The notes beneath the pieces are model-generated. The model worked only from the letters and a program-made list of their open reading frames with translations. It was not told the DNA's origin and made no database searches. The position numbers were made by a program, and so were the translations under genes. A stretch of 35,121 nucleotides of DNA from Bacteroidota bacterium (lineage in GTDB: Bacteria; Bacteroidota; Bacteroidia; Chitinophagales; Chitinophagaceae). Every line of letters starts with the position of its first letter. The first letter of the stretch is position 1. The DNA is taken from assembly GCA_013286485.1 (NCBI GenBank), contig JABDFN010000011.1, positions 1 to 35,121 on the forward strand, given 5' to 3'. Shown piece by piece: positions 8,931 to 31,046 of the stretch.

Positions 8931-8952
8931 TTCAAAAGGGTTTAATTATTAA

Positions 8953-9783: not shown

Positions 9784-9784
9784 T

Positions 9785-11075: not shown

Positions 11076-11076
11076 T

Positions 11077-11352: not shown

Positions 11353-11647
11353 CTACATTCAATTGTCCTGAGTTAGTAATTTCTATTTTATTTACTTTCA
11401 TACCATCACGATTAAATTCTTTACTTGTATCGCGTGATACTTCATTTAGACCCTCATCATCCAGGTATCCGAACACACCCACACATATTGTGGGGTTTTG
11501 TTTAAAGCTGCCTTTATCATTTAACAGCAACTGTCTTTGATGCTGTATAGTTGACTCAATTATTTGAAAATCTCCATTTAAGATTGTCAGATCGTCAGTA
11601 CCATCACCAAGTGTTACTAATGCAGCATCCATCATTTGTTTTGCCAT
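11336..11647 (-). CDS. GpW/gp25-like baseplate wedge protein
   Basis: This 103-residue protein has the size and place of Mu gp46/T4 gp25. The segment DDLTILNGDFQIIESTIQHQRQLLLNDKGSFKQNPTICVGV matches the gp25-like pattern in which a short strand is followed by a helix and a loop containing G-x-F/G-x-x-P. The C-terminal TNSGQLNVDAYYP is also typical. Gp25 proteins link wedge to sheath through a sheath-like handle. It starts 4 bases after the small helical gene and overlaps the LysM-like gene. Confidence 0.65.
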   Translation of the reverse strand: MAKQMMDAALVTLGDGTDDLTILNGDFQIIESTIQHQRQLLLNDKGSFKQNPTICVGVFGYLDDEGLNEVSRDTSKEFNRDGMKVNKIEITNSGQLNVDAYYP

Positions 11648-11651
11648 ATTG

Positions 11652-11870
11652 TTAACTTAAAGTATTTCCAAATGTTCCGGAAACAGCACCACTTGAATCA
11701 GCCAGGCCGGTTGTATAAGTTATTTGCAGTGTCTTCACCCATGTTTCCAGCGCTGCACCAATTTTATCAGCAAGGTCTTCTGCAGCCCCGGTTGGATCTG
11801 AATTGTTTGCCCGTTGATCCAGAAATGCCTGTTTTATTGATGCTTTTAATGTTGTTGTATCTAAAGCCAT
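11652..11870 (-). CDS. Small helical baseplate-region protein, unknown
   Basis: I do not recognise this 72-residue protein as a named family. The sequence (TTLKASIKQAFLDQRANNSDP, then AAEDLADKIGAALETWVKTLQI) is a helix, a break and a second amphipathic helix, then a glycine/serine-rich tail. Similar small proteins occur between spike and gp25-like genes in Bacteroidota phages. It sits one base after the spike-gene stop region and four bases before the next gene, so it is surely in the operon. A virion or assembly role is inference. Confidence 0.6.
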   Translation of the reverse strand: MALDTTTLKASIKQAFLDQRANNSDPTGAAEDLADKIGAALETWVKTLQITYTTGLADSSGAVSGTFGNTLS

Positions 11871-11871
11871 T

Positions 11872-12378
11872 TTATATAGTTAAGAAATTGTCTAAGCGGG
11901 ATTTAATATTTGAAATGGTGGAGCTGTTTATTGGAGTTCCGCTAGGGCCGGTACTTGTAGAAACTGTAAGATTTAATATTGCCTGTAACAAATCATCCAT
12001 TATTTTACCCAGGCTTTCACTTCCATTTACTAATCCATATTTAGTTCCATCCATAGTAAATACCTGGCTGTCTATTGTAATTGAAGCTTTGGTGATATTA
12101 CTGGCTCTTACAAGTATGTATTCGCCGGGGCCATCCACAGAAGCTATAATGACATTGCTGCCCACTTCGGGGTAAAGTATACATCCATTGTTGTTTTCAC
12201 TCACAGCATTCAGACTTACGGTAACAGTTTCTGCATCTGTATCCTCGAATGAACTTGTTCGTGCTTCCATGGTAAGGTCTGATTCGTTCACGCTTATTAC
12301 AACAGCACTCATTATTTCAATATTTGCAGGTAACAGATCTCTTATCCCTGCCCGTATCTTTTTTATGTTTTTGCTCAT
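11872..12378 (-). CDS. Baseplate spike/gpV-like protein
   Basis: The 168-residue protein starts with a helix (NIKKIRAGIRDLLPA) and continues with an OB-like barrel region: VVISVNESDLTMEARTS and YPEVGSNVIIASVDGPGEYILVRAS, the latter a common gpV/gp45 (PF04717/PF18715) pattern. A short beta region (ASITIDSQVFTMDG) precedes a C-terminal helix, and there is no long beta-helical needle or His-metal tip, so this would be the central spike body. It lies between hub and gp25-like genes, as in Mu. The gap to the hub gene is 13 bases. Confidence 0.68.
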   Translation of the reverse strand: MSKNIKKIRAGIRDLLPANIEIMSAVVISVNESDLTMEARTSSFEDTDAETVTVSLNAVSENNNGCILYPEVGSNVIIASVDGPGEYILVRASNITKASITIDSQVFTMDGTKYGLVNGSESLGKIMDDLLQAILNLTVSTSTGPSGTPINSSTISNIKSRLDNFLTI

Positions 12379-12391
12379 ACTTGTGACCGTA

Positions 12392-13444
12392 TTAATTATT
12401 AAACATTTTCCCTATCTCGAAAGTACGGCGTGCGCCATTTGTTCCAAATGACACCTCTGTTGATTCTACCAGGTATATCCCATCTCTTTGCGGGTATCTT
12501 TTATCTTTAATTAATGCACTATAGCCTGGCAAAGTATAGGGTTGTAAAAAGCCCGATATAGTTCCCTCATAACCATTATAGTTTTCCTGAAGCTGTTTTT
12601 CAACAGCCAGCTTTTTCAAAGAGGCTTCATTGGCTACTTGTGTCAGCAACTTTTTATATTGTTTTTGTGAGATAACACTTGTGTATATACCCGAGACTGT
12701 TTGCCCTGTTGATAAACGTTTTTTATACAATACGGCAAGTCTATTATCATCCAGCGTTCGTTGTTTTAAAGTGTTTTCCTTAAGTGTATTATACCCCAAT
12801 TTTAATTGAACACTATTGCTACCGAGTATACTGTTGTTATTAGTCATATCTGTATATGGTAATCCACACCATAATTCATTCGGGTTTATAAAAAATATAG
12901 TCAGTACATGATCTGTAGCCCTGTGAATGTATTCGATGATCTCGGCGCCGGTAAATGATGATAACTGCACATTGCAAAGTGTAATATCGGCTATGCAAGT
13001 GAGTTTGATTTGAGGAGATGTGTTGCCTATATTAGGTAAACCGCTAATTGCCAGTTTTAACAGGTCTTCAACAGAGATGCTTTTCCAACTACCCGATATT
13101 TTATTTTTTTTGAGCAACCAACTATACCCTTCGCATTCAATTTCTAAAGGCATATTCAAATTACGGCGCCTTATAAAACCACGAAACTCTTCCTGCATAG
13201 TTTTATTATAACCCAAACTTATTGTTACAGGGTCTCCATCATTCCAAATAGTGCTTGTTGTCAACTCTATTGGCTCTAATTTGTTTTTGTACTTTACCGT
13301 AGATACAGAAGGCAATGATATCATAGCGGTGTCCACAAAACTGTGTATACTGCGTTTTATGTAAATACTATGTACACCACTAAATCTAAATTGGTTAGTA
13401 CCTGGAATACCTATTGTAATATCGCTGTTTAAAATAAAGGGCAT
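12392..13444 (-). CDS. Tail hub protein (gp27/gpD, late-control-D-like)
   Basis: A 350-residue protein with the four-part organisation of contractile-tail hubs. An N-terminal barrel (VHSIYIKRSIHSFVDTAMISLP, then NDGDPVTISLGYN) matches the part that contacts the tube. An EFRGFIRRRN element and a C-terminal DKRYPQRDGIYLVESTEVSFGTNGARRTFEIGK, typical of gpD-like proteins, follow. Residues 275-300 are lysine-rich and probably form the linker. It lies upstream of the spike gene, the standard order. The product forms the trimeric hub that carries the spike. Confidence 0.7.
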   Translation of the reverse strand: MPFILNSDITIGIPGTNQFRFSGVHSIYIKRSIHSFVDTAMISLPSVSTVKYKNKLEPIELTTSTIWNDGDPVTISLGYNKTMQEEFRGFIRRRNLNMPLEIECEGYSWLLKKNKISGSWKSISVEDLLKLAISGLPNIGNTSPQIKLTCIADITLCNVQLSSFTGAEIIEYIHRATDHVLTIFFINPNELWCGLPYTDMTNNNSILGSNSVQLKLGYNTLKENTLKQRTLDDNRLAVLYKKRLSTGQTVSGIYTSVISQKQYKKLLTQVANEASLKKLAVEKQLQENYNGYEGTISGFLQPYTLPGYSALIKDKRYPQRDGIYLVESTEVSFGTNGARRTFEIGKMFNN

Positions 13445-13446
13445 AC

Positions 13447-14040
13447 TTATATCTCATTTAAATTGAAATCCTCATCACTTACCAATTCCATTATATAGGG
13501 GCATAATTTTATATCTCCCTTTGCTTCGGGGAACAGGAGCGATTTTATTACCACCTTATCGTTTGCACTTCTTTCTTCGCTTAACAGAAAAATATCAGTC
13601 AGCGGACAGATTATTTTTAAAGGCTGTAGATTTTTATAGAGATCATGTAATTGTATTATGCCATCTTCTGGCCAGGAATTGTTTTGTCCTACGAGAAAAC
13701 CACGAATTTTTATTTCATAGTCCTGTAGTCTTATCACTTCTTTTACGGTGCCATTCCTTTCAGTAAGGGCTGTGGAAATGATTGTTTTGGCACAGTTGAT
13801 TGTAATAACGGGGTATGAAAGAGGAATATAATCTGTTGTTCCGTCCGACTGTAAAAATACAGGCATAAAATAAGCCCTGCCAAAAGCATCATCCCAATAT
13901 AATGGCCATCCGTTTTTTGATTTGGACGCTGTTTCAGAAAGCTTGTCCAAACGCTTATCTACAGAAGAGAATTTGTATTGCTGAGGTGTAATACCAAATT
14001 GTTTTTGAAACAGGTCTATTATGCTGAATGAAATTTCCAA
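13447..14040 (-). CDS. Baseplate-associated protein (DUF6046-like)
   Basis: The 197-residue product resembles, from memory, Bacteroidota phage tail proteins grouped as DUF6046; I cannot confirm that by search. Visible features are PLYWDDAFGRAYFMPVFLQSDG, a beta strand block ending ...IISTALTERNGTVKEVIRLQDYEIKIRGFLVG, and QLHDLYKNLQPLKIICPLTDIFLL. The strand-ERNGTVKE-strand motif and the C-terminal part look like the beta-rich fold of tail-adaptor proteins. It is 2 bases upstream of the hub gene in the same operon, between tape measure and hub, suggesting a tube-to-hub connector (gp53/gpU-like place). Confidence 0.6.
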   Translation of the reverse strand: MEISFSIIDLFQKQFGITPQQYKFSSVDKRLDKLSETASKSKNGWPLYWDDAFGRAYFMPVFLQSDGTTDYIPLSYPVITINCAKTIISTALTERNGTVKEVIRLQDYEIKIRGFLVGQNNSWPEDGIIQLHDLYKNLQPLKIICPLTDIFLLSEERSANDKVVIKSLLFPEAKGDIKLCPYIMELVSDEDFNLNEI

Positions 14041-14095
14041 TTTTGAAATATTTGTATTTGTTATTATTTTGCCCTACTTAAATCCCAGTTGTCCG

Positions 14096-14479
14096 ATGAA
14101 ATATTTAATTATTGCAGTATTTTTTTTCATTGCTGCTTGTCAAATGCCAAAACCAAGAAGTGCTACTTATAATCTGGCAAATAAGGCAATAGATTCTGTG
14201 ATTGTGCAAAACAGGCTGCTTGATTCAGTCATGAAATTGAATTGGGATGCGGTAGATATAAGAAGTATTTATCTGACGGCTGTTATAAACCGGTATGTAT
14301 TTGCAAATATTTTTCAGAAAAAGCGGCTTGAGATTGAGGATACTAATGAATACAATACACTTACAAGACGTTATAATGACCGCATTAAAACTCCTCCCAG
14401 TGATTTTTATCCTTATCCGGATATGGACCCTGCTAAAAGAGATGCTATTTTTTTAAAAACCGGATTAGACACTAAATAA
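14096..14479 (+). CDS. Lipoprotein, first of a tandem paralogous pair
   Basis: I start this gene at ATG 14096 (127 residues) and not 14021, because only then is there a clean lipoprotein signal: MKYLIIAVFFFIAAC with Cys15 in an IAAC lipobox. The mature protein is helical and charged, without a known domain. It shares a pattern with the next gene: N-x-AIDS-x-IV-x-N, YL...NRY-x-FA and PS-x-FYP. It lies on the plus strand inside the minus-strand tail operon, between tape measure and DUF6046-like genes, so it must have its own promoter. It looks like an inserted 'moron' gene acting in the host envelope. Confidence 0.72.
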   Translation: MKYLIIAVFFFIAACQMPKPRSATYNLANKAIDSVIVQNRLLDSVMKLNWDAVDIRSIYLTAVINRYVFANIFQKKRLEIEDTNEYNTLTRRYNDRIKTPPSDFYPYPDMDPAKRDAIFLKTGLDTK

Positions 14480-14491
14480 ATTTTTGTTTTT

Positions 14492-14914
14492 ATGAAACAT
14501 ATACTTTCAGTAACTATTTTATTATTCTTGATTATATCTTGTGTTCAGCAACAACCGGTTAGCGGACCTTATGCTGAAGATATTGCCAACACTACTATTG
14601 ACTCACTGGTTGTGGAAAACGACCGTTATACCAGATACCGTAATCCTACTACCCAGGAAGAACAATATCTTTCTTATCAAGCAGAGCTCAACAGATACAC
14701 TTATGCAAAGACATATGAGATGACAGTAAATGATATAAAGGATGAAAAAAAGAAAATGGAGGTCATAAAAAAATATGATAAAGAAGTTGAAGGGATTCCA
14801 AGCAACAAATTTTTCCCCAGCGATTTGATGGCACCTGCTTTGTATGCTATTTTCCCTGATCTTGTTAATTCACCTGATGCGCCCACACCAATGAAAACTC
14901 CGGTTGGTAATTAA
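14492..14914 (+). CDS. Lipoprotein, second of a tandem paralogous pair
   Basis: A 140-residue lipoprotein precursor: MKHILSVTILLFLIISC gives an IISC lipobox at Cys17. The mature part (YAEDIANTTIDSLVVEN, YLSYQAELNRYTYAKTYE, KKYDKEVEGIPSNKFFPSDLM) aligns by eye with the preceding lipoprotein. The pair probably arose by tandem duplication; divergence is already large. It is 12 bases after its partner and ends 19 bases before the convergent tape-measure gene's stop. Function is unknown. The opposite orientation to the surrounding tail genes argues for separate expression. Confidence 0.72.
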   Translation: MKHILSVTILLFLIISCVQQQPVSGPYAEDIANTTIDSLVVENDRYTRYRNPTTQEEQYLSYQAELNRYTYAKTYEMTVNDIKDEKKKMEVIKKYDKEVEGIPSNKFFPSDLMAPALYAIFPDLVNSPDAPTPMKTPVGN

Positions 14915-14933
14915 GTATACTCATTGCTTTATG

Positions 14934-16049
14934 TTAATGAGCTGCAAAAATTTCATGTAATGCCCGCTCAACTTCTTGCTTTATAACAGGGTAGCTTTCT
15001 TTCATTCCCTTAACATGAATGTCAAAATGCTCGATGAGTGATTTGTTCATATTGATAATGATGGAACCACCACCTCGAGGGCCTGCATACCTGACATGCA
15101 ACAAATGATCAGCTACCGCATCATCCTCTCGTTTCTTCCTTTCTTCTTTGCTGACAGGTGTTGCGCTAATTGTTAAAGGTGCATAATAGAAACTTTTTTG
15201 ACCGGCATATCGATGTTCGTTTATAGGCACATTGCTGATTGGAATTTGATGATCTTGTCCAATAATATTATCAGAACCAAAGTCTGCATGCTTTTTTGCA
15301 TTTTCAACACCTGTCAAAACCTCTTGTTGCGATGACACATATTCATATGGTTCTCCTGTTGAAGGCTTTGCAATTTCTTTTTTTCCTGCAAAGTGCGAAT
15401 ATAATGCAGCCCCACCCGTTAGTACAGCGCCGGCTATGAGAGGAAACAGACCTACGCCGGTTTCAGATGTAGCAATGCCAACCCCAATTAATTCTTCACC
15501 AAATGTTGACACTAATGATAGAATGCCACTTTCTTCCATAATAGCAAGACCGGAATCCACCACATAATTTGTTGCCTCTGTTATTACATTTTTCCCGAAG
15601 ATTTTTACGAGCCTTTTTGCCAAATTGCCTCCTTTATAATCAAATGCAAAGTCTGTAACAGTATTCAAACCAACTTTTATAGCTGAATTCAAGAGATCAT
15701 TTCCCGGGTTATTTTGCCCAGGTTGCTGAGAAGTAGCTACATATGGGATGTATGGCAAGCCGGAAGGATATGGTATACTCACCTGCAAGCTTTGAAGCTT
15801 GTTTGATAATTCATCAACATGCTTTTCTGCATTTATTATTTCAGAAATGTCGAGGTGAACATGATAGGCGTTTGACAATATGGAAGAATTGTTAACCTCA
15901 TCCTCTGCGTGGGTAGCAATATTTAAAAGCAGATCACATTCGTTTTGCATTAACTCATTGAATGTTTGCAAAGTTTGCTCTATAGAAGTAATTAATTCCA
16001 TCCAGGAATCTTTGCTTACCAGGTCAATATATGTTGCTATCTCTTCCAC
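14934..16049 (-). CDS. Putative tape measure protein, unusually short
   Basis: The position between tail chaperone and hub-region genes identifies this 371-residue product as the tape measure candidate. It has long helical stretches (SWMELITSIEQTLQTFNELMQNE, INAEKHVDELSNKLQSLQV) and one hydrophobic glycine-rich segment around residues 190-215 (ATSETGVGLFPLIAGAVLTG), as tape measures usually have for membrane passage. The C-terminal third is less typical, with GGGSIIINMNKSLIEHFDIHVKG. The start is a GTG with AGAAAG just before it; ATG 16001 is a possible alternative. If the usual 0.15 nm per residue holds, the tail would be about 55 nm or shorter. Confidence 0.6.
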   Translation of the reverse strand: MEEIATYIDLVSKDSWMELITSIEQTLQTFNELMQNECDLLLNIATHAEDEVNNSSILSNAYHVHLDISEIINAEKHVDELSNKLQSLQVSIPYPSGLPYIPYVATSQQPGQNNPGNDLLNSAIKVGLNTVTDFAFDYKGGNLAKRLVKIFGKNVITEATNYVVDSGLAIMEESGILSLVSTFGEELIGVGIATSETGVGLFPLIAGAVLTGGAALYSHFAGKKEIAKPSTGEPYEYVSSQQEVLTGVENAKKHADFGSDNIIGQDHQIPISNVPINEHRYAGQKSFYYAPLTISATPVSKEERKKREDDAVADHLLHVRYAGPRGGGSIIINMNKSLIEHFDIHVKGMKESYPVIKQEVERALHEIFAAH

Positions 16050-16054
16050 CTTTC

Positions 16055-16213
16055 TTATTTTGTTTGTTGTTTGTGTATGTATGCCAGGTGCGCTAGTTTT
16101 TGCGCAAATGCTTTGTCTGAAAGTTTATTGTGCTCTAATCCCGGCAGGTAATACTCTAAAATGGTTTCCAGGTATCCGAGGAAGTCGTGCTCCGGGCCTC
16201 CACACGCTTCCTC
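16055..16213 (-). CDS. Shifted-frame extension of the tail assembly chaperone (gpGT-like)
   Basis: This stretch is too short for the ORF track. In the -1 frame relative to the chaperone, 52 codons stay open after the chaperone stop and read GGPEHDFLGYLETILEYYLP then LSDKAFAQKLAHLAYIHKQQ, clearly protein-like. No ATG, GTG or TTG begins it near its 5' end, so the natural reading is a ribosomal frameshift producing a longer chaperone, as lambda gpG-gpGT and many contractile phages do. An earlier TAA in that frame (about 16229-16231) confines the shift to the last few codons before the chaperone stop. No canonical slippery heptamer is visible there. Confidence 0.6.
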   Translation of the reverse strand, partial: EEACGGPEHDFLGYLETILEYYLPGLEHNKLSDKAFAQKLAHLAYIHKQQTK

Positions 16214-16527
16214 TATAAGTTTACCAGTTTAGCTTTTTTGCCATCCATTTTACTGCGTATCTGCTGCACTAACCCGAAGAATTTCTGATCATCATTTATA
16301 ACTTCTTCGCTGCCACCTAAAAAGGTAAGTCTTGCCAGCTCTTCATACATATCTAATGCTAAGCCTGATGATGCTTTACTGAGGGCGCAATTCATTTCAT
16401 TCCGGTTAGGGTTTTTAAAATAGCCTACGTGCCCGTCTACCTCTATGGCATAGATACCTTGTTTGTATTGCTGTTTCCAGGTATTTACCTGTTCGTCAGT
16501 TTGCTGTCCTGTTAATTGCTGTTCCAT
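16213..16527 (-). CDS. Tail assembly chaperone (gpG/gp41-like)
   Basis: A 104-residue acidic-to-neutral helical protein located between the tube and tape-measure genes, the invariant site of tail assembly chaperones. These bind the tape measure and recruit tube subunits, and are absent from the finished virion. VNTWKQQYKQGIYAIEVDGHVGYFKNPNRNEMNCALSKA is followed by helices ending in KKAKLVNL. Its start overlaps the tube stop by one base (TAATG). The 3' end carries the frameshift extension annotated separately. Identification rests on position, size and that extension. Confidence 0.68.
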   Translation of the reverse strand: MEQQLTGQQTDEQVNTWKQQYKQGIYAIEVDGHVGYFKNPNRNEMNCALSKASSGLALDMYEELARLTFLGGSEEVINDDQKFFGLVQQIRSKMDGKKAKLVNL

Positions 16528-16958
16528 TATATAGTTACTATGGGGTTAAGTCTTAAGAAGATAATCGGGAGTTTTATTTCCATATGTTTGGCGCCTTGCT
16601 CCCAGCCTTGTTCAAATTCTTTTACCTGCACGCCAACCAGCAAGTCAGTTTTTAAAGCGCGGTTTGATTTTGCTTTATAGGTTATTACTATGTCAAACTC
16701 CAGGTCCAGCACATCCTGCCCAAGGGCTGCCACAGCTGCTGTGTTTATATCATCGAGTGCACCTTTTAAAAGGCTTATTTCACCTTCGTAAGAGCGGTTG
16801 CCACTTTGTATAGCTACCGGTTGGTCGCCTGCTGCGTACAGCTCTTCCTTATCTTTTTTTGCTTTGTATCTGATTCCGCGAATTTTTGTTACCGGCGCAC
16901 CTGCTATCAGCACCTGCATGTCTGCCCATTCGCATTCTTTACTATTGAAAAAGTCCAT
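16527..16958 (-). CDS. Tail tube protein
   Basis: The 143-residue product follows the sheath gene and has the beta-barrel character of tail tube (gp19/FII-like) proteins: DMQVLIAGAPVTKIRGIRYKAKKDKEELY, then QPVAIQSGNRSYEGEISLLKGALDDI. The GNRSYEGEISL segment, a strand-turn-strand followed by a helix, is a common feature of tube subunits in this lineage. The C-terminal QGAKHMEIKLPIIFLRL supplies the last strands. It would polymerise into the inner tube through which DNA passes. The start is separated from the sheath stop by a 94-base spacer filled with palindromic repeats. Confidence 0.75.
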   Translation of the reverse strand: MDFFNSKECEWADMQVLIAGAPVTKIRGIRYKAKKDKEELYAAGDQPVAIQSGNRSYEGEISLLKGALDDINTAAVAALGQDVLDLEFDIVITYKAKSNRALKTDLLVGVQVKEFEQGWEQGAKHMEIKLPIIFLRLNPIVTI

Positions 16959-17052: not shown

Positions 17053-18219
17053 TTATGCTGCAGGGTCGCTGAATCCAAGTGTTATACTGATGGTGCTGCT
17101 ATAGCCAACAGGCACAATTTTCAGTACTACATTTACTATATTGGTAGCCAGTACATTCTGCGAGGGGTCTACATAACAAAGCACATTGCTTATTTCGTTA
17201 TTGGCTTTCATGATGAGGCTTAGCTGGTTGATAATTTGCTGCTCCATGAATTTGCAATAGCCTGCATCCAGCGTGCCATCTGCATTAACAAGCACCTCGT
17301 TATCTATTTCTTCCACATAAGTTGCGTAGGCAATTATCTGTGCTTTATCTATTACCCTGCCGCGGGCTACAAAGCAATAATCATCTGTAGTAGCGGTGCA
17401 GGTTGGGTCGCCGGTAAAATAATAACCCGTTTTATTGGCAAATGTGCGCACAGATATATACCCACGATCGTGAATGGTAGATGTTGTAGTATACTGAGCT
17501 GCATCTGTAGCAACAATATATGCCGCAGGCGTGCTGAGCGGACCCGTTTTTACACGGCTTACTTTTCTTTGCACCGGAATAGCAGAAAGCCTGCCTAATA
17601 GTAAACCAATAGCCGCACGGTTAGTAGACGCAACTGTATCGCCTATTAATATGGCCACACGATTTTGGCTTGCAGTTGTTTGATCAGTAAGTGCGGTGGC
17701 TGTGCCACTATAATTTTCACCTGCAATAATTGCTCTAAAAGGCCATTGCTTGTTGAAATATGTGGTAGCCAGTGTTTGCATATTGGTTTTGGCAGTAGCT
17801 ACTTTTGAATTGATGCCGTTTGTAATGGTTGGTGTATAAGCGCCCGGGTCGTCCATGATGCCCAGTATGCGTATTGCACCGGCTGCGAAATCGAGCAGCT
17901 TAGTGGCGCCATTAGCATTGGTTTGATCTGCCATTGCGTCTACTGTTACTGTATTGGCAGTTAATAACAAATACAGTGTAGCGCCATTTCCGGCTTCGTT
18001 GAAAAATTCTGTTATCTCTTTGTAAGCAATGGGGTTATTTGTTTGCGTTAATCCTTTGCTTTGCGCATCGCTCAGGCTGATAACCGTAAGTGGTGTTCCC
18101 TGCACAATGGTTCCTTCGCTTACACCTACCAGCACCATACCGCAAACACCATCTGCAGTTTGTAGTGTTTGCCCCAGTGTACCGTTGGCGAGTGTGATAT
18201 TTACATTTGGTAATGACAT
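17053..18219 (-). CDS. Contractile tail sheath protein (DUF2586-like)
   Basis: At 388 residues this is a compact sheath. It begins LPNVNITLANGTLGQTLQTADGVCGMVLVGVSEG and continues with TVISLSDAQSKGLTQTNNP...KEITEFFNEAGNGATLYLLL, the pattern of Bacteroidota DUF2586 sheath proteins. Late segments TGPLSTPAAYIVATDAAQYTTTSTIHDRGYISVRTF and CYVDPSQNVLATNIVNVVLKIVPVGYSSTISITLGF correspond to the conserved C-terminal sheath domain used for the inter-ring mesh. Presence of a sheath defines the particle as contractile. It is the first tail gene after the lysis genes. Confidence 0.8.
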   Translation of the reverse strand: MSLPNVNITLANGTLGQTLQTADGVCGMVLVGVSEGTIVQGTPLTVISLSDAQSKGLTQTNNPIAYKEITEFFNEAGNGATLYLLLTANTVTVDAMADQTNANGATKLLDFAAGAIRILGIMDDPGAYTPTITNGINSKVATAKTNMQTLATTYFNKQWPFRAIIAGENYSGTATALTDQTTASQNRVAILIGDTVASTNRAAIGLLLGRLSAIPVQRKVSRVKTGPLSTPAAYIVATDAAQYTTTSTIHDRGYISVRTFANKTGYYFTGDPTCTATTDDYCFVARGRVIDKAQIIAYATYVEEIDNEVLVNADGTLDAGYCKFMEQQIINQLSLIMKANNEISNVLCYVDPSQNVLATNIVNVVLKIVPVGYSSTISITLGFSDPAA

Positions 18220-18240: not shown

Positions 18241-18768
18241 TTAGTATTTTATAAAGCCCAGTATTAGCTTATCATTCAGGCTGCGTTTGTGGCGAACTAC
18301 TTCATATCCTTCACGGCTGCCGTTTGTATTACTGTTGCCTTCTATGGTATGTAAAATGCTGCCTTCAATTTTTTCGATGATACCGGTGTGCCCTGCGCCA
18401 TGGCCATAATTCATAATGAACTGGTCTCCGGGTTTTAATAAGGCAGGTTGAGCCCAAGCTTCGCTGCGGGTGATACGCTGTTTTGCATCTGTTTTGTTCC
18501 AACAGTTTAGCGCACCTCCTGTTTTTATTACCGGGTCATCTTCCTGCAATTGTATAGCGGCTTGTTGGTAGCACCAGTACACAAATGCCTGGCACCAGGC
18601 ATAACCGGGTACTAATCCTACTGACGCGAGGTATACATTTACCATGGGGCCGTTATTACTGCCTTTGGGCTCTTCGCACTGCCCCAACTGACCCTGCGCT
18701 GTTTGCAGGGCCAGTGTTGCGAGCGACATAGTGCGGACAATTTCATTCTGTGGGTTTACAGGGGCCAT
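18241..18768 (-). CDS. CHAP-domain endolysin
   Basis: The 175-residue protein is a CHAP-type (NlpC/P60-like) peptidoglycan hydrolase. The catalytic cysteine is Cys59 in PGYAWCQAFVYWCY, the histidine His127 in GHGAGHTGIIEK, with EGNSN (about 143-147) supplying the third polar residue. All three are present, so an active amidase or endopeptidase is expected. There is no signal peptide, so release needs a holin, and a holin-like gene lies two genes upstream. An endolysin within the cassette implies cell lysis as the particle exit route. The position between capsid and sheath genes is unusual compared with Mu. Confidence 0.82.
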   Translation of the reverse strand: MAPVNPQNEIVRTMSLATLALQTAQGQLGQCEEPKGSNNGPMVNVYLASVGLVPGYAWCQAFVYWCYQQAAIQLQEDDPVIKTGGALNCWNKTDAKQRITRSEAWAQPALLKPGDQFIMNYGHGAGHTGIIEKIEGSILHTIEGNSNTNGSREGYEVVRHKRSLNDKLILGFIKY

Positions 18769-19625: not shown

Positions 19626-20534
19626 TTATGCTTCATCCTGGATAATGGCAATAATGCCTTTCTCATCGCTGCGGCGTTTGCGGCCACCCATATGCAGGCT
19701 GATGCTGTAGACATCACCATAATACAAAGGGTCACCGATCTTTTCGTAGAAGGTAATATCGCCCAACGCACGCTCTACCGCATGCCTGTGCCAGCACAAT
19801 ACGGTATCATTGTCTGTATTGGCGGTAGCCCCAACTGCTCTTGTTACAGGTGTGCTGTCATTGCTGTAGATGAGCACACTGCTGCGCAGCATAATATGAA
19901 AACCAAACAATTTGCCGAGCACACCATTTTTTGCATCGAATGCGGCACTGAAATCGCGATAGACAGTTTGTGTCATATCATCTGTAAGCTGCTGAAACAT
20001 ATCTGCACTTATCAGTGCATACCTGTCTTCGAGGGGTATGTTTTGCTTGTTCAGTTGCAATTGCGCGTTCTTCAGGTCTTGTACAGTGAACTTCTTTCTG
20101 TTGCCGGTAGTACCTGAAATATGTGTAGCTACTGATGCACCTGTGGTTCTTACCATATTGGCTAAAAGATCAGGCGCCCAGTCGAGCAGCAGGCTTTCGG
20201 CAGTAGACTCGCGCAATGCAGCTTCACTTTCTGACAATACACTTTCGCGTTTGTTATAGCTCAACTCTATGGTATCTGCATTTGGTATCAGTATCGGGTC
20301 CGTGCTGAACTCATCGAGGTTGTAAGTAACATCAGCATCTGTGCGCTCTGTTACGGTGGCAGGTATGGTAGAACGGTTCTTCTCTACATTAGGTGTAGCA
20401 CCTGCCTGCGGAATATGTACTACTTTTCCTTCCAGTACAAACTGGCCTGCGTCTGTAGATGCTAGTAAGAACTCATTGTTTTTAAAGAGGTTTCCCTCTA
20501 TATGGTCTTCCCATATTTCTTTTTGAATTGCCAT
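19626..20534 (-). CDS. Major capsid protein
   Basis: The 302-residue protein directly follows the protease/scaffold gene, the usual place of the major head subunit, and has matching size (Mu gpT is about 305). It begins AIQKEIWEDHIEGNLFKNNEFLLASTDAGQFVLEGKVVHIPQAG, with an N-arm and E-loop-like start. Later parts include FTVQDLKNAQLQLNKQNIPLEDRYALISADMFQQL, a long spine helix followed by ALIS, typical of HK97-fold capsids (the 'Y-x-l-is-p' element). The C-terminal DITFYEKIGDPLYYGDVYSISLHMGGRKRR fits a P-domain end. No decoration domain is evident. Confidence 0.75.
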   Translation of the reverse strand: MAIQKEIWEDHIEGNLFKNNEFLLASTDAGQFVLEGKVVHIPQAGATPNVEKNRSTIPATVTERTDADVTYNLDEFSTDPILIPNADTIELSYNKRESVLSESEAALRESTAESLLLDWAPDLLANMVRTTGASVATHISGTTGNRKKFTVQDLKNAQLQLNKQNIPLEDRYALISADMFQQLTDDMTQTVYRDFSAAFDAKNGVLGKLFGFHIMLRSSVLIYSNDSTPVTRAVGATANTDNDTVLCWHRHAVERALGDITFYEKIGDPLYYGDVYSISLHMGGRKRRSDEKGIIAIIQDEA

Positions 20535-20713: not shown

Positions 20714-21700
20714 TTAAGGCTGGTTGCCAAATTTCTCTTTGAATATCTCTTTGTATCGCTCAGTATGATTTGCTTTGAGCTCTTTTAGTTTTTTACCGCC
20801 CGGGTCGTTGCGCTCATAATCATCCCAGCTCCATTGTAATTCTGCTTTGTCGCGGGTAGTTGCTTTTAGGTGTTCGGATATGCTGCGGTAGGCGGGCATC
20901 GCATCGAGCAATGATTTTAATGATACAGGATTGGTAGCATAGTCAGTAGCCAGTTTATTTTTCAGCGCTACTGTTATCTTTTTGTTTTCCAGCGCTTCGT
21001 CCAGCAATGCCTTCACTTCAAATTTTACATGATTGCTGTTCAGGTCTGCAAGCTGTTGCTGCAATTGGTAGATATCATTCAGCAGGGTTTTATTTTCTGA
21101 GGATAATTTTTTCACACTCGCTGCTATTGTTGCATTATCAGCATCTTCAGTAAGGTTCAGTGCCTGCAAACATTCTTCTGTAAGTACAAACTCTTTTTGC
21201 ATTTTACCTTTTACATGTTGCATTTGAAAATCTGGGAGGTTCAGTTCATTTTCCTGTGCGTCATACAATTGCGTCAGCGCATTGCTGTTGCCGGGAATAT
21301 CTACCAGGCTGCATTCTTTATTATACCATTTGGTGATGGTAGGTCCTGTTTGCCCGGGTAGCATTTGTTCCGGGTCAGTGCTGTATTCCAGTACCACTAT
21401 ATGGCCCACGCTGGCTGCATTCAGAAAGCCATTCTCTGCTTCGTCGCAGGTTTGCGGGCCGCGATCATGAGACAGGTTGATAACAGGCGTGCCATAGAGT
21501 ACATCATTTTCAATGCGCAGGTTATCCCATTTCAGCACTACACCATCTTCACGGCGGTGCATATAATAGCCAATGGGGTTTTTCTGAAAAGCATCGAGCT
21601 GGTAGCCGGATGTGAGCAGCCGGAATCCATATTCATTCACAGAGCTGTCGGAGAGTATATACTCTTTATCAATTTTCTTGTATTTGTCGGTCAGGGTCAT
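20714..21700 (-). CDS. Prohead protease fused to scaffold
   Basis: A 328-residue two-part protein. The first 150 residues resemble an S78/U35 prohead protease: NPIGYYMHRREDGVVLKWDNLRIENDVLYGTPVINLSHD carries candidate histidines, and ENGFLNAASVGHIVV supplies the candidate catalytic serine. From about residue 165 the chain is charged and helical with a leucine-rich coiled coil (LSSENKTLLNDIYQLQQQLADL), as expected of a scaffold. It ends with a lysine-rich capsid-binding-like tail. It is the first gene of the minus arm; a promoter and triple operator lie directly upstream. Confidence 0.72.
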   Translation of the reverse strand: MTLTDKYKKIDKEYILSDSSVNEYGFRLLTSGYQLDAFQKNPIGYYMHRREDGVVLKWDNLRIENDVLYGTPVINLSHDRGPQTCDEAENGFLNAASVGHIVVLEYSTDPEQMLPGQTGPTITKWYNKECSLVDIPGNSNALTQLYDAQENELNLPDFQMQHVKGKMQKEFVLTEECLQALNLTEDADNATIAASVKKLSSENKTLLNDIYQLQQQLADLNSNHVKFEVKALLDEALENKKITVALKNKLATDYATNPVSLKSLLDAMPAYRSISEHLKATTRDKAELQWSWDDYERNDPGGKKLKELKANHTERYKEIFKEKFGNQP

Positions 21701-21724: not shown

Positions 21725-21756
21725 CAAAGATGAAACGGATATTTACGCCTGCCAAA
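21725..21756 (-). promoter_or_regulatory. Promoter of the minus-strand structural arm
   Basis: Read on the minus strand there is TTTG (21756-21753), exactly 20 bases, then CATCTTTG (21732-21725), a 7/8 match to the Bacteroidota -7 box TAnnTTTG. Start of transcription would fall near 21720, giving a leader of about 20 bases to ATG 21700. The first T of the -7 box is replaced, which suggests a weak promoter in need of activation by the operators just upstream. Confidence 0.62.
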
Positions 21757-21763
21757 TCGTTTT

Positions 21764-21818
21764 GATAACTTACCCCTGCAACTGCGGTAACTTACCCTTT
21801 TATCTGCGGTAGCTTACC
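21764..21818. promoter_or_regulatory. Triple 22-bp-spaced operator upstream of minus arm
   Basis: Three 11-base palindromes GATAACTTACC (21764-21774), GGTAACTTACC (21786-21796, perfect) and GGTAGCTTACC (21808-21818) have centres exactly 22 bases apart, two DNA turns. The segments between them are also alike (ending CTGC). The nearest palindrome lies 7 bases from the -33 box of the minus-arm promoter. The same arrangement occurs at 22445-22499. This looks like the binding array of an activator common to both arms. Confidence 0.7.
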
Positions 21819-21914
21819 AAAATCTTTGCGCGCAACTGATTGATAGTCTGTAATAAATACATAGATGTGTAAGTGTGGAGATTTTCAGAAGTGAAAATGC
21901 AGAGATAAAAGATA

Positions 21915-22325
21915 CTATCTGACGAAATGATAAAACTCTGCCCTGCCTTTAAAAGTATCTGCCAGGTACATGGTGTTGGTAGTAAGTGAGTCTATATGAT
22001 ACAAGCTGCGCGGTAAATAAGGCACATATATAGGAAAGGATAATTGTAAAATATTAGATGCCTGCAGATTCCATTGAAATGTAAGTGGTTGAAAAAGATC
22101 GCCGGTATAATTGCCCGAACCATCTGTATTGAATTGCAGGCGTATATATTGGTTTTGCAGATTGGTTATTTCATTAGATGTGAATACGCCATTACTGTCA
22201 TAGTCCACCCCATACTCAACGTAAGACCAATTGGCAGCTACCACAGGTGAGTTGGGCGGTGTATCTGTTTTTGAACAGGATACAATTAGGGTAATAATTA
22301 TAACTGTAACAACAAATCTAATCAT
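21915..22325 (-). CDS. Lipoprotein between the two divergent structural arms
   Basis: A 136-residue lipoprotein precursor: MIRFVVTVIIITLIVSCSK with Cys17 in an LIVSC lipobox. The mature protein starts with proline/threonine residues (TDTPPNSPVV) and then has beta strands with WSYVEYGVDYDSNG, IRLQFNTDGSGNYTG and FQWNLQASNILQLSFP, reminiscent of the small lipocalin-like lipoproteins common in Bacteroidota. It lies alone between the two operator arrays, with its stop 97 bases from the left array. A weak promoter-like pair (TTTC-N20-GATATTTG) lies upstream. Role unknown; an envelope 'moron' is the likeliest class. Confidence 0.7.
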   Translation of the reverse strand: MIRFVVTVIIITLIVSCSKTDTPPNSPVVAANWSYVEYGVDYDSNGVFTSNEITNLQNQYIRLQFNTDGSGNYTGDLFQPLTFQWNLQASNILQLSFPIYVPYLPRSLYHIDSLTTNTMYLADTFKGRAEFYHFVR

Positions 22326-22444
22326 AGGTGTATTCAGTGGTAAAAATAATCAGAATTGCATTACAAATATCACTCATTCTAAAATGGCTCTGAAAATTTA
22401 GCATAAAATATAGCTAAAATGCGCGTCCGGAGGGCATTTCTTAT

Positions 22445-22499
22445 GGTAATTGACCCCTATAACTGCGGTAATTTACCCCCCGGAAAGGGGTTAGTTAAA
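22445..22499. promoter_or_regulatory. Triple 22-bp-spaced operator upstream of terminase arm
   Basis: GGTAATTGACC (22445-22455), GGTAATTTACC (22467-22477, perfect) and the degenerate GGTTAGTTAAA (22489-22499) repeat the palindrome of the left array with the same 22-base centre spacing. The segment between the first two agrees closely with the left array (CCTnnAACTGC). The last palindrome ends 7 bases before the -33 TTTG, the same distance as on the left. The third unit is weak (8 of 10 specified positions). Confidence 0.68.
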
Positions 22500-22506
22500 A
22501 ACCCGA

Positions 22507-22538
22507 TTTGCACAGTTTTAAAACCCGTTGGAACTTTG
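22507..22538 (+). promoter_or_regulatory. Promoter of the plus-strand packaging arm
   Basis: TTTG (22507-22510), exactly 20 bases, then GAACTTTG (22531-22538), a 7/8 match to TAnnTTTG that departs at the same first position as the left promoter. The ATG of the small terminase lies only 4 bases beyond the -7 box, so the message would be nearly leaderless. The hicB promoter has a similar arrangement. Confidence 0.55.
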
Positions 22539-22542: not shown

Positions 22543-22992
22543 ATGAAAGACGAATTTACCAACGAGCAAAAGAAAGATCATGCGAGACTTTTGTTCACCT
22601 ATCAGCAAGAAAGTATTGCCAATATATCCAAAACCACTGGCATAACCGAAGATCAAATAAAAGACTGGATAAAAGAAGATAAATGGAATGTAAGAAGGGA
22701 GGCTAACCTGCTAACCAAAGACAACCAGTTGCACCGATTATATAATATGCTGCTGCATATAACCGATAAAATAAAAGTAAATAAATACGCACTAAAAGAT
22801 ATCAAAGACCTGGATATAATGCTGAAATTGACGGCATGTATACGAAACCTGGAAGATGAGGACAGCATAGCCTATACTATAGATGTGGCAAATGCATTTA
22901 CCGGCTGGCTGAAAGAAGAAGCCCCGAAAATGGCGCTGCCCTGCGCCAATGCTTTTGAAAAATATATTAATTACTTAGAGCGGAAAGAATAA
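22543..22992 (+). CDS. Small terminase subunit (HTH DNA-binding)
   Basis: I start at ATG 22543 (149 residues), not at the TTG 22528 of the ORF track, because the product then begins KDEFTNEQKKDHARLLFTYQ, a natural N-terminus. An HTH follows: ESIANISKTTGITEDQIKDWIKEDKWNVRREANLL (about residues 24-58), characteristic of terminase small subunits that recognise packaging DNA. The remainder is helical and probably oligomerises. Its stop is one base before the large terminase start. It is the first gene of the plus arm behind the operator/promoter block. HTH and location support the call; a regulator role is less likely. Confidence 0.72.
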   Translation: MKDEFTNEQKKDHARLLFTYQQESIANISKTTGITEDQIKDWIKEDKWNVRREANLLTKDNQLHRLYNMLLHITDKIKVNKYALKDIKDLDIMLKLTACIRNLEDEDSIAYTIDVANAFTGWLKEEAPKMALPCANAFEKYINYLERKE

Positions 22993-22993: not shown

Positions 22994-24559
22994 ATGAGTA
23001 TAAAGACACTTCCTAAAACCCGAAGAAAAAGAAAACTGAAATTTGAAGATACCCGGCAAAACCTAAAAGATGCCACTCCTGTAAAGGCAGAAACACTGGA
23101 GGAAAAAAGAGAACGCATAGCAATGCTGGAAGCAGACCCTGAGGAATGGTTTCGCTATTACTTCCCTAAATATTATTATTCAGAGCCTGCACAGTTTCAT
23201 ATAGATGCAACCATGCGTGTGCTGCAACACCCTGAATGGTATGAAGTGCGCATATGGAGCCGCGAGCTTGCCAAGAGCACAAGAACAATGATGGAAGTGT
23301 TTTACTTGGTATTCGTACGACGCCTTCATCCCTCCCGAATTTTCGGGACCCTCTCCGAAGGAGAAGCCGCGGTACAAAAGAAGAAATATGTATTGATGAT
23401 CAGCAATAGCCTGGACAATGCAGAAAGATTACTATACCCTTACAAGCTGAACCTGGAATGCAACCAGCGCATTATCAGCGATTACGGTTTGCAGGAACAG
23501 GCAGGCAAATGGAAAGCTGAAGAATTTGTAACGATGGACGGTGTGGCATTTCGCGCGCTGGGCGCGGGGCAGAGCCCGCGCGGCACAAGAAACGAAGAGG
23601 CAAGGCCCGACATTATTTTGTTTGATGATATAGATACAGATATGGATTGCCGCAACCCCGACCTGATCGCTAAAAAATGGAAATGGATAGAAGAGGCTGC
23701 TATCAGCACACGCTCGGTATCAAAAGGCACACTTATTATTTTTTGTGGCAACCGCATTGCCACCGATTGCTGCATAACAAGAGCCTGCAAGCTGGCAGAC
23801 CATGTGGATGAGGTGAATATAAAAGATGAAGAAGGAAGATCTACCTGGCCTGAGAAAAATACGGAAGAAGATATAGAACGGGTACTCAGCCAGAAAAGCT
23901 ATGCAAGTGCGCAGAAAGAGTATTATAATAATCCCGTTACAGAAGGATCGGTGTTTAAAGAAATGGCGTACAAGCCCGCAAGGCCTATGCAAGACTATAA
24001 ACTACTGGTATGCTACACTGACCCTTCTTTCAGGGATACTAAAAAGAACGATTATAAAGCTACTGTGCTGGTAGGCAAGTGGGAGGATGAATACCATGTA
24101 CTAAAATGTTACCTGGAACAAACCACTACCGCCCGCATGGTAGACTGGCATTACAACATTAAACAAATAGTTGGCAACTGCAATTGTTATTATTATATGG
24201 AGCAGTGTTTCTTGCAGGATATTTTAATCAAAGAGTTTTATGACATCTGCAACCAGAGAGGCGGTACCATACCCATGGGTGGAGATAGCCGGCACAAACA
24301 GGATAAATTTACCCGCATAGAAAGTTTGTTAGAACCACTGAACCGGAACGGTAAACTTTTTTTAAACGAGAACGAACAACAAAACCCGCATATGCAAAGA
24401 CTGGAAGAACAATTTCTCGCACTCTCACCCCAGAGCCGTGCGCATGATGATGGCCCGGATGCGGTAGAAGGCGCGGTGTGGATGCTGAACAGTAAATTGG
24501 CAGCAAGCGCAGGCGGCATTGTATCTGTTGCGAGACAGGGGAGGAGGAATGGGTGGTAA
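22994..24559 (+). CDS. Large terminase subunit (packaging ATPase-nuclease)
   Basis: The 521-residue protein has both terminase domains. ATPase: a Walker-A-like SRELAKSTR (about residues 89-97), Walker B PDIILFDDID (about 205-214) and a coupling motif GTLIIFCGNR (about 245-254). Nuclease: CYTDPSFRDTKKNDY (Asp343), YYMEQCFLQD and HDDGPDAVEGAVWM near the C-terminus, the acidic triad of the RNase H fold. All key residues are intact, so DNA packaging should still be possible. Residues about 111-128 (HPSRIFGTLSEGEAAVQ) look like a translated repeat insertion. It follows the small terminase by one base. Confidence 0.88.
   Translation: MSIKTLPKTRRKRKLKFEDTRQNLKDATPVKAETLEEKRERIAMLEADPEEWFRYYFPKYYYSEPAQFHIDATMRVLQHPEWYEVRIWSRELAKSTRTMMEVFYLVFVRRLHPSRIFGTLSEGEAAVQKKKYVLMISNSLDNAERLLYPYKLNLECNQRIISDYGLQEQAGKWKAEEFVTMDGVAFRALGAGQSPRGTRNEEARPDIILFDDIDTDMDCRNPDLIAKKWKWIEEAAISTRSVSKGTLIIFCGNRIATDCCITRACKLADHVDEVNIKDEEGRSTWPEKNTEEDIERVLSQKSYASAQKEYYNNPVTEGSVFKEMAYKPARPMQDYKLLVCYTDPSFRDTKKNDYKATVLVGKWEDEYHVLKCYLEQTTTARMVDWHYNIKQIVGNCNCYYYMEQCFLQDILIKEFYDICNQRGGTIPMGGDSRHKQDKFTRIESLLEPLNRNGKLFLNENEQQNPHMQRLEEQFLALSPQSRAHDDGPDAVEGAVWMLNSKLAASAGGIVSVARQGRRNGW
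23333..23364. repeat. Palindromic repeat pair inserted in large terminase
   Basis: TCCCGAATTTTCGGGA (7-bp arms) is followed by TCTCCGAAGGAGA (5-bp arms). The same TCCCGAA..TTCGGGA family is found at 25731 and 25950. Here it is translated in frame as PSRIFGTLSEGE and does not break the gene. Confidence 0.7.
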
Positions 24560-25276: not shown

Positions 25277-25711
25277 ATGCCCTACATCACGCAATCAGAC
25301 CTCAGCACACATATCTATGCAGAGGTCATCAACGAAATAACAAGAACAGACAATACCATTGTCACCAAAGCAATTAACACCGCCATACAGGAAACAAAAA
25401 TGTACCTGGGCAGGTACGATCTGTTGCAACTATTCGGCACAGATACAATAGCACCCACAATAACAGATGAATACCTGAAAAGTATTGTAAAGGATATTAC
25501 CTGCTGGCATTTGATACGGCTTGCCAATGTAAATGTAGATTATACTGCCTACCGCAATAATTATTATGATGCCATCAATGCGCTCAAAACAATTATGAAT
25601 GGCGGTGCCAATCCTGATGGCTGGCCGTTTAAAGACACTACCGGCGAATCTGTTCCCGATGGCGATACCATCACCTGGAGCAGCAACCCCAAGAGAGAAA
25701 ATTATTATTAA
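25277..25711 (+). CDS. Head-tail connector, DUF1320/Mu gp36-like
   Basis: A 144-residue protein: MPYITQSDLSTHIYAEVINEITRTDNTIVTKAINTAIQETKMYLGRYD is a clear DUF1320 (Mu gp36-like) beginning, with a short strand and two helices, followed by LKSIVKDITCWHLIRLAN and YYDAINALKTIMNGG. The C-terminal tail (GDTITWSSNPKRENYY) is typical of the family. These proteins join portal and tail. It lies 44 bases after hicA, showing that hicBA interrupts the usual packaging-head order. No sign of decay. Confidence 0.82.
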   Translation: MPYITQSDLSTHIYAEVINEITRTDNTIVTKAINTAIQETKMYLGRYDLLQLFGTDTIAPTITDEYLKSIVKDITCWHLIRLANVNVDYTAYRNNYYDAINALKTIMNGGANPDGWPFKDTTGESVPDGDTITWSSNPKRENYY

Positions 25712-26468: not shown

Positions 26469-27593
26469 ATGTCAGTAACAGTAAAAAAAGCCCCCGAGGG
26501 CAAAACCGAAATTATTGTAAACGAGCTCAACCTGCGTTCTATAGACCGTACCCGCAAAGATGTAGGCACATGGCGGCATGCGCTTATGGCTGCAGAGTCT
26601 GTTTACAATCCCAATCGCTCCCGTTTATACGATATTTATGAAGAGATATTGCTCGACGGGCATTTATCAGGCATTATAGAAAAACGAATAGACGCCATTC
26701 TGAATAAAACTATTTTCTTTGAGCAAGACGGCAAGCGAATAAAGGAGATGGACGCTTTTGTGAACAGCGCAGCTTTTCGCGAGATCATGCGCATTATTAT
26801 GCAAACACGCTTATGGGGTATATCAGGTATTGAATTTATCCCGGGCAAAACACCCATGTTTGCTCAAATCCCGCGCAAGCATATTAAGCCCAACCTTGGC
26901 ATTATATCATTCGATCAGTCAGATACAGAAGGTATAGCTTATGAAGGCCTGCCCAATGTTTGGATCTTAGGTGATGCAAACGACCTGGGCTTGCTGGTAA
27001 AATGTGCGCCCTATGCGCTCTATAAAAAAAGCAATCTCTCAGACTGGGCAGAATATATAGAGATGTTTGGGCAACCAGTAAGAATTATAAAGTATGATTC
27101 CTACGATGAGCAAACAAAGCAGGAACTAAAAAAAGTACTGGACGAAAGTGGCAGCTCGCTCGCCATTATGCTGCCCAAGCAAGCTGATTTTGATATGAAA
27201 GATGGCAGGCATTCATACAATGATGGCACATTGCATTTACTATTCCTGAACGCATTGAATGCCGAGATGTCTGTTATTATTCTCGGCAATACCGAGACAA
27301 CGGTCAGCAGTCCTAAAAGCGGTTATGCACAAAGCAAAGTGCATGAAAGCCAGCAAAATGAAATAACAAAAAGCGATCTTATCTATACTGCTAATATGCT
27401 CAACAGCGAACAATTCCTGAATATACTGGCAGGCTATGGCTACCCTGTTGCCAACGGGCAATTTGTATTTGCTAAAGAAATGGACCTGCAATACCTGCAG
27501 GCAAGAATGGCTATAGACAAGCAGCTTACTGAGCTGGTTCCCATATCGCATGAGTATTGGTATGATAACTATGGTATTGCCAGGCCTGAATAA
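26469..27593 (+). CDS. Portal protein, DUF935/Mu gp29-like
   Basis: The 374-residue protein matches the DUF935 portal family: LRSIDRTRKDVGTWRHALMAAESVYNPNRSRLYDIYEEILLDGHLSGIIEKRIDAIL at the start. Then come TRLWGISGIEFIPG, DWAEYIEMFGQPVRIIKYDS and LNALNAEMSVIILGNTETT, a hallmark region. The portal forms the dodecameric ring at the capsid vertex. It is shorter than Mu gp29 (about 510) but typical for Bacteroidota versions. No Mu gp30-like head-morphogenesis gene follows; an outer-membrane-type gene stands in that place. Confidence 0.82.
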   Translation: MSVTVKKAPEGKTEIIVNELNLRSIDRTRKDVGTWRHALMAAESVYNPNRSRLYDIYEEILLDGHLSGIIEKRIDAILNKTIFFEQDGKRIKEMDAFVNSAAFREIMRIIMQTRLWGISGIEFIPGKTPMFAQIPRKHIKPNLGIISFDQSDTEGIAYEGLPNVWILGDANDLGLLVKCAPYALYKKSNLSDWAEYIEMFGQPVRIIKYDSYDEQTKQELKKVLDESGSSLAIMLPKQADFDMKDGRHSYNDGTLHLLFLNALNAEMSVIILGNTETTVSSPKSGYAQSKVHESQQNEITKSDLIYTANMLNSEQFLNILAGYGYPVANGQFVFAKEMDLQYLQARMAIDKQLTELVPISHEYWYDNYGIARPE

Positions 27594-28336: not shown

Positions 28337-28858
28337 ATGAACTCACCTTTCGCCAATATATTTTTGGCAATACAACAGCGTATACAAAACAATGTTACCG
28401 GTATCAATTATATCGATCAGGACCTGGGACAATTAAAAAACGACCGTAATACAACGCGCCCAAATATTTCTTTTCCATGTGTGCTAATAGACTTTGAAGA
28501 TTTTAACTTTGAAGACATTGCTGAAAATGCACAAACTGCAAATGCAACCATTGTACTGCGACTTGGACTTGCACCTTTCAGTAATAGCAGCCAGGTAACA
28601 CCAACGGGCTATATAGCAAGCGCAATTAGTTATTACGACCTGGAATGGTCGCTTCACAAAGCTATTCAAGGCTGGTCACCCATTGACGACACGGGTTATA
28701 TGATGCGCACTGAAGTGGCTACACAAAAACGCAACGATACTATACGGGTGCGCGAGATCAGGTATAGCCTTGCATTTGAAGACTATAGTACTGCAAACAA
28801 TATTCAAAGGGTATCAGAGCCTGTGCATATATCTCCGCAGATACAATTACCACTTTAA
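28337..28858 (+). CDS. Tail terminator/head-tail joining protein (gp37-like)
   Basis: The 173-residue product has the tail-terminator look: helical MNSPFANIFLAIQQRIQNNVTGINYIDQDLGQL, then FPCVLIDFEDFNFEDIAENAQTANATIVLRLG and later WSLHKAIQGWSP, with VREIRYSLAFED as a closing strand. This corresponds to Mu gp37-like/minor tail proteins of Bacteroidota phages, which cap the tail and join it to the head. It is the last gene of the plus arm. Its TAA and the stop of the convergent HTH-like gene share the four bases TTAA. Confidence 0.65.
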   Translation: MNSPFANIFLAIQQRIQNNVTGINYIDQDLGQLKNDRNTTRPNISFPCVLIDFEDFNFEDIAENAQTANATIVLRLGLAPFSNSSQVTPTGYIASAISYYDLEWSLHKAIQGWSPIDDTGYMMRTEVATQKRNDTIRVREIRYSLAFEDYSTANNIQRVSEPVHISPQIQLPL

Positions 28859-29163
28859 ATTTTCCATATTAAATGCCCCCATTTATTCTGAAAATAAAAT
28901 ATACCCGGCTTATTTTTTTTCAGGTTGACAAGGTAAGCTGATTGCGATTGTATAATATCAGAGATCGTTTCCCGAGACAGAAAGAATTCAGACATTATAT
29001 TTTCAATAATTATATTGTAGCGCTTGTCAGTAAAATGTGAGAAGTAATAGTAACGGTCAGCAAGACATTCATTTCTTTGCAACCGTAATTTGTTACTGCG
29101 CTTGCGGGTTTGCTGAACGCCCGGCTCTTTTATATCGTTCTTAAAATTGGTTTCGCCTCTCAT
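28855..29163 (-). CDS. Small HTH-like DNA-binding protein, candidate regulator
   Basis: A 102-residue basic protein. KLRLQRNECLADRYYYFSHFTDKRYNIIIENIMSEFFLSRETISDIIQ has an HTH-like core (about residues 48-72), with LSRETISDIIQ as the likely recognition region. I recall similar small 'RNExL..RYYYY' proteins in Bacteroidota near phage genes, without assigned function. It converges on the tail terminator with a shared TTAA and has its own promoter containing a palindrome, suggesting autoregulation. It may belong to the phage-like locus or to the host; it is the only non-terminase DNA-binding candidate here. Confidence 0.6.
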   Translation of the reverse strand: MRGETNFKNDIKEPGVQQTRKRSNKLRLQRNECLADRYYYFSHFTDKRYNIIIENIMSEFFLSRETISDIIQSQSAYLVNLKKNKPGIFYFQNKWGHLIWKI

Positions 29164-29216: not shown

Positions 29217-29319
29217 AACATATTCACCTTATTAGCGCAATATCCCATGAAATGCATGCCAGGCAATAAGTGTAATAAAAAACAAAATGAGAGTATTTAT
29301 TTTTTTGTGGATAAGCAGG

Positions 29320-30984: not shown

Positions 30985-31027
30985 AGAAGTGGTAACAAAT
31001 ATACGTTTCAAAATACCAAGACGGTAA

Positions 31028-31035: not shown

Positions 31036-31046
31036 CTGTTCAGCCA

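Follow-up and report, generated by a model that had tools for sequence, protein, structure and literature searches.

Paired operator arrays before the divergent particle arms of a Mu-like Chitinophagaceae element resemble docking sites of a small phage activator

Mor and C of phage Mu are small helix-turn-helix (HTH) activators; at the promoters that depend on them, they bind inverted repeats immediately upstream of −35 (PMC4390567, PMC4461284). C acts on late promoters, the gene I promoter among them, and its sites there lie upstream of −35 (PMC4461284). In the Mu gene order, the C gene directly precedes the late genes. ORF14 of the Flavobacterium columnare phage fF4 has been reported as Mor-like by HHpred (PMC7761591), and no mechanism for late-gene switching in the common Mu-like phages of Bacteroidota was described in the literature searched.

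The window analysed here, a 35,121-nt stretch of DNA from a Chitinophagaceae genome, carries a cluster of head and contractile-tail genes in two divergent arms (Table 1). The matches to the Mu-type portal and I protein are both above curated cut-offs, and relatives of the large terminase (TerL) in the phage collection include transposable Bacteroidota phages (Elizabethkingia phage TCUEAP3, Porphyromonas gingivalis phages and hankyphage p00); to judge from these proteins, the locus is a descendant of the Mu-like transposable phages of Bacteroidota. The ORF at the tape-measure position (14934–16049) has only 371 aa, versus 545–1157 aa in related loci L049 and L143, a length that could mean a short tail. 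Two small ORFs located between terL and the adaptor gene (24610–25232) resemble a HicB/HicA pair by eye, the first without Pfam confirmation.

Table 1 Features of the window and related array and DnaA-box loci
Feature	Position or locus	Strand	Remarks
Remaining left arm: tail chaperone-like, short tape-measure-like, DUF6046, baseplate-like and fibre-like genes	7621..16527	-	roles partly by position
Two small ORFs inside left arm	14021-14914	+	
Tail protein	16527..16958	-	sits at tail-tube position
Contractile tail sheath	17053..18219	-	
Endolysin	18241..18768	-	
Major head protein	19626..20534	-	
Mu-like I protein, head protease/scaffold	20714..21700	-	first left-arm gene; PF10123, E 6e-7
Left promoter -7 box CATCTTTG	21725..21732	-	identical box in relatives L035, L047, L082, L205-L207
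Left promoter -33 element TTTG	21753..21756	-	
Left operator array	21764..21818	-	units 21808-21818, 21786-21796, 21764-21774; faces head/tail arm
Small lipoprotein-like ORF between arrays	21915..22325	-	
Right operator array	22445..22499	+	units 22445-22455, 22467-22477, 22489-22499; last unit weak
Right promoter -33 element TTTG	22507..22510	+	
Right promoter -7 box GAACTTTG	22531..22538	+	
Small terminase-like DNA-binding protein (TerS), phrog_4151	22543..22992	+	first right-arm gene
Large terminase	22994..24559	+	
Head-tail adaptor	25277..25711	+	
Portal protein, Mu type	26469..27593	+	PF06074, E 7e-61
Conserved last right-arm gene, phrog_6911	28337..28858	+	function unassigned
Candidate activator, 102-aa HTH protein, phrog_17154	28858..29163	-	end of right arm; function unassigned in PHROG
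Perfect DnaA box TTATCCACA upstream of candidate activator gene	29306..29314	-	
Further own-genome arrays	C2:42051-42105, C17:3476-3530, C21:22852-22906		
Single-array loci	L149, L151, L159, L161, L169, L171-L176, L183, L184		
Perfect DnaA boxes upstream of terS	L089, L093, L097, L101, L104, L106, L108-L110, L113, L117, L121, L136		domesticated-looking clade

Divergent clusters of the same type occur in many Chitinophagaceae. None of the window's proteins resembles MuA or MuB, and a MuA search was negative in its own genome (a draft of 1.93 Mb, 60% complete) and in G034, G063, G080, G006 and G179 (drafts, 60–99%). In G070, which belongs to another genus, the host genes beside the left arm are the same (degT, glycosyltransferase, methyltransferase, wbqC-like, mreD, mreC), as are the membrane-protein and ferredoxin-reductase-like genes beside the right arm, and their order matches the flanks of the window, which argues for inheritance with the chromosome; the G070 arms are now ~36 kb apart, and the left arm is decaying, with a broken protease gene. 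The membrane proteins adjoining the right arm in both genomes are a pair of similar large proteins of unassigned family (29320–31074 and 32879–34555 in the window). The element looks domesticated, since the 60% of the genome that could be searched yielded no MuA and the host flanks are common to another genus. Values of dN/dS against G034 are 0.21/3.2 for TerL, 0.19/1.6 for the major head protein and 0.24/2.5 for the protease; dS is saturated, so that dN far below dS indicates protein constraint only.

Each divergent arm is preceded, within 21725–22538, by an array of three 11-bp palindromes with centres 22 bp apart, followed in order by 7 bp, TTTG, 20 bp and a −7 box. The left array reads, on the − strand (5′ to 3′), GGTAAGCTACC-11-GGTAAGTTACC-11-GGTAAGTTATC, AAAACGA, TTTG, 20 bp, CATCTTTG, and the right array, on the + strand (5′ to 3′), GGTAATTGACC-11-GGTAATTTACC-11-GGTTAGTTAAA, AACCCGA, TTTG, 20 bp, GAACTTTG. 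Direct reading of both strands bore out the palindromes, spacing and positions given in an initial annotation of this DNA, as well as the exact promoter distances and the off-consensus first base of the −7 box that it had described on both arms; the arrays, which it had placed ~630 bp apart, are separated by 626 bp, and the third right-hand unit, rightly called weak, has at least three mismatches. The 22-bp triple was found in 0 of 100 first-order Markov shuffles of the window, and single palindromes with up to two mismatches are at chance level (16 found, 17.4 expected).

Bacteroidota promoters are usually numbered with TTTG at −33 and TAnnTTTG at −7. Under this numbering the unit centres fall at about −48, −70 and −92, and both arms show the layout of a Bacteroidota primary-sigma promoter (these two elements with ~20 bp between them), each having TTTG, 20 bp and NANNTTTG, which deviates from TAnnTTTG at the first base. 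A sigma-70 promoter scan is uninformative for Bacteroidota, and an Rfam search gave no match. A conserved spacer (CCTATAACTGC), common to the window and G070, suggested reading the arrays as direct repeats; this reading was dropped because the ends of the palindromes vary together from lineage to lineage. In our view, the operator arrays and promoter geometry are settled at the sequence level.

Searched for directly, GGTAAnTTACC at 22-bp spacing gave 10 forward pair matches in the window's own genome, making five arrays (control pattern, 0), and no pairs in relatives. With these letters absent, the conserved layout in relatives is visible only in letter-free scans. Letters differ by lineage (GGTATSATACC, GGCACCATGCC, TGCATCATGCT and others) and the palindrome is generally kept. 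An unbiased scan of 157 loci, with selection by palindrome and repeat score alone and promoter information unused, identified 21 non-redundant arrays, compared with 0 of 157 shuffled regions at that score. Of the 42 flanks of these arrays, 26 have TTTG at offset 35, counted from the end of the array, and four have it at offset 36; no offset other than 35 is represented on more than four flanks. Homologous loci thus conserve geometry and spacing, while the palindrome letters change between lineages.

In Mu-like prophages and phages, including Elizabethkingia phage TCUEAP3 and Flavobacterium, Pedobacter and other prophages, a single symmetric array lies between the protease gene and terS, with the promoter layout on both sides (Table 1). 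G034 and G168 have two arrays, one per arm, and G070 retains one at each arm although its arms have moved apart. Two arrays are probably the derived state, related Mu-like phages having one array for both promoters. A second operator class, ACC-N5-GGT (ACCGTCANGGT), was seen at the same terS position in L051, L053, L142 and L217, and in loci of the other clade (L037, L050, L052 and L053) the region in front of the protease gene contains a further conserved block that resembles a promoter, ATTTGGYAAGGGTTTCAG...ATTGCAATTTTAC.

Elsewhere in the window's own genome, the arrays on contigs C2 and C17 have the full layout (7 bp, TTTG, 20 bp, GAACTTTG or GAGCTTTG), and that on C21 has lost the −7 box on the promoter side examined. 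The C2 array faces a gene for a surface protein of the type IX secretion type (1201 aa), with PorP/SprF next in order, and the C17 array faces an ORF of 161 aa that has no Pfam match. Sequence shared by the C17, C21 and left-arm copies extends past the array itself; on the far side of each, a back-facing AATCTTTG lies close to the array (L066 3468–3530, L067 9345–9407 and window 21808–21830) and might serve as a divergent promoter, which the protein would cover when bound. A looser three-unit pattern matched five places in G034 and seven in G070, with none in the controls of these two genomes and one control match in another genome; one G070 match, inside a gene (C35:32954), is probably due to chance. 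Arrays accompany TerS-like genes away from the particle locus in G034 (C125, C33, C281, C466), G070 (C20, C23, C39) and G080 (C778), and two G070 arrays lie near paralogous lipoprotein genes, where the −7 box is not convincing. The dispersed TerS-like paralogs have 150–370 aa and number 7–10 in some genomes, several with a promoter array (L277, L278 and L279 in G034; L272 and L276 in G070). A switch for packaging and structural genes, as first proposed, is therefore too narrow, since arrays also lie outside the particle locus in this genome and in relatives.

The candidate reader of the arrays belongs to a family of ~100-aa proteins found in 86 loci, where its gene as a rule directly follows the last right-arm gene and is convergent with it. 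The AlphaFold2 model of the 102-aa protein is helical (mean pLDDT 87), with helices where an HTH would be expected. A structure search of this model against the PDB returned nothing significant (best E 1.3), although HTH proteins are frequent among the weak top hits, and Pfam gave no match, so the HTH assignment is based on the sequence pattern and the model. For 21 loci, distances between operators correlate with those between recognition segments (rho 0.60, p 0.0002), also with TerL divergence removed (rho 0.49, p 0.0004), although Mantel tests on related sequences overstate independence and the operators were hand-picked from the array scan, before the correlation was seen, in a choice that was not blind. 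The rest of the protein gives 0.13 with TerL removed (not significant). A sliding covariation profile peaks at the HTH, with a second, weaker peak in the N-terminal helix, and the peak falls to rho 0.29 when close relatives are removed (nine non-redundant loci). L110 is a full-length locus with an array and without the 102-aa protein nearby, no array is recognisable at some loci that encode the protein, and in some relatives its gene is unlinked. The covariation supports, rather than proves, that the 102-aa protein reads the arrays.

The array layout suggests a docking site for a small and so far undescribed phage activator, which would turn on the particle genes, and activation by the 102-aa protein is the best-supported explanation, with a probability of about 0.75. 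We infer binding, oligomeric state, activation and timing as follows. A domesticated Mu-like phage would have two late promoters that depend on an activator, with the arrays as their operators, and each 11-bp palindrome would be bound by the 102-aa protein, probably as a dimer. Three dimers, at two-turn spacing, would align on one helix face at the unit centres and recruit or activate RNA polymerase at weak −33/−7 promoters, so that a single protein would switch on the packaging genes along with those for head and tail. Both divergent promoters would be fired by one symmetric array in related Mu-like phages; in the window's clade each arm would have its own array, with further copies controlling genes elsewhere in the chromosome. 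The earlier proposal of one DNA-binding activator serving both arms from two-turn arrays gains support from the geometry conserved in homologous loci and is corrected as to operator letters, number of arrays and breadth of the regulon.

A host transcription factor encoded elsewhere might instead bind the arrays, the 102-aa protein having another role, as the arrays outside the element, the unlinked gene in some relatives and the absence of a significant structural match would allow; we consider this unlikely, given that arrays are found, with letters particular to the element, in phages and prophages from different host families, and that the covariation favours the 102-aa protein. A repressor of the late promoters (lysogenic silencing) could also use symmetric operators placed between divergent promoters, but every unit is located upstream of −33, at a constant distance and without overlap with the −33/−7 elements, and the −7 boxes are off consensus, as expected for activated promoters, which makes repression quite improbable.

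It is very unlikely that the small terminase recognises the arrays, whether as pac-like sites or for TerS autoregulation: TerS is annotated as DNA-binding, and arrays precede terS and several dispersed TerS-like genes in relatives, but its recognition helix does not track the operator letters (rho 0.04), the distance from array to −33/−7 elements is exact on both sides, and arrays are also found in front of the protease gene and non-terminase genes. That the arrays are a mobile repeat copied around the genome, with no regulatory function, would fit the extended likeness of the C17, C21 and left-arm copies and is nonetheless scarcely credible, as relatives keep the geometry and change the letters, for which copying alone is insufficient, and controls gave zero or near zero. 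The analysis provides a named candidate protein, its operator and an exact promoter layout, all testable in culturable hosts, and the covariation of recognition segment and operator across lineages is a natural data set for DNA-recognition rules.

The DnaA-box sequence TTATCCACA occurs 43 times in 1.44 Mb of examined loci. It lies within 260 bp upstream of terS 13 times in 31 loci, against about 0.24 expected, on a single strand and at recurring distances; these 13 are not independent events, because the loci are related. Six further boxes, including one in the window, lie upstream of the activator gene.

Mor and C of Mu resemble the proposed system in that each is a small HTH activator whose gene lies close to where the early/middle genes end and which acts at inverted repeats in front of −35; C in addition controls late operons, that of gene I included (PMC4390567, PMC4461284). 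Mor has one site, centred at −43.5, whereas the arrays here have three sites spaced by 22 bp, which in the phages are symmetric with respect to two promoters, and the promoters have Bacteroidota-type −33/−7 elements, unlike those of Mor/C. The tests do not place the 102-aa family in Mor/C: 0 of 64 family members match the Pfam Mor domain (PF08765) at E 0.1, Mu Mor and C matching at about 1e-33, and hhalign profile comparison aligned only 23 HTH columns (probability 3.8). The transposable Bacteroidota phages (p00, TCUEAP3, the P. gingivalis phage and F. columnare fF4) share the divergent protease/head and terminase arms and a related TerL; p00, TCUEAP3 and the P. gingivalis phage encode 102-aa homologues, TCUEAP3 together with an array, which the array scan did not find in p00 or the P. 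gingivalis phage, and the F. covae locus L150 has no detectable homologue. The window differs from these phages in lacking MuA/MuB genes and in having a separate array per arm.

Phage structural and packaging genes, an apparent lack of mobility genes (as judged from the 60% draft), a probably fixed chromosomal place and putative targets elsewhere in the genome recall gene transfer agents (GTAs) of the RcGTA and CcGTA type. We tentatively suggest, as a possibility rather than the expected outcome, a Mu-derived GTA-like element inherited with its Chitinophagaceae host, in which a former phage late activator would run a dispersed regulon (particle arms, TerS-like packaging paralogs and surface proteins), with host DnaA input suggested by the boxes before terS or the activator gene, and which might mediate gene transfer. 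If so, it would also give a route for extending a phage switch over a host regulon and, if the domesticated form makes particles, a GTA-like system in a phylum where a limited literature search found none. Set beside RcGTA and CcGTA, the particle here would be of a Mu-like contractile type, in Bacteroidota.
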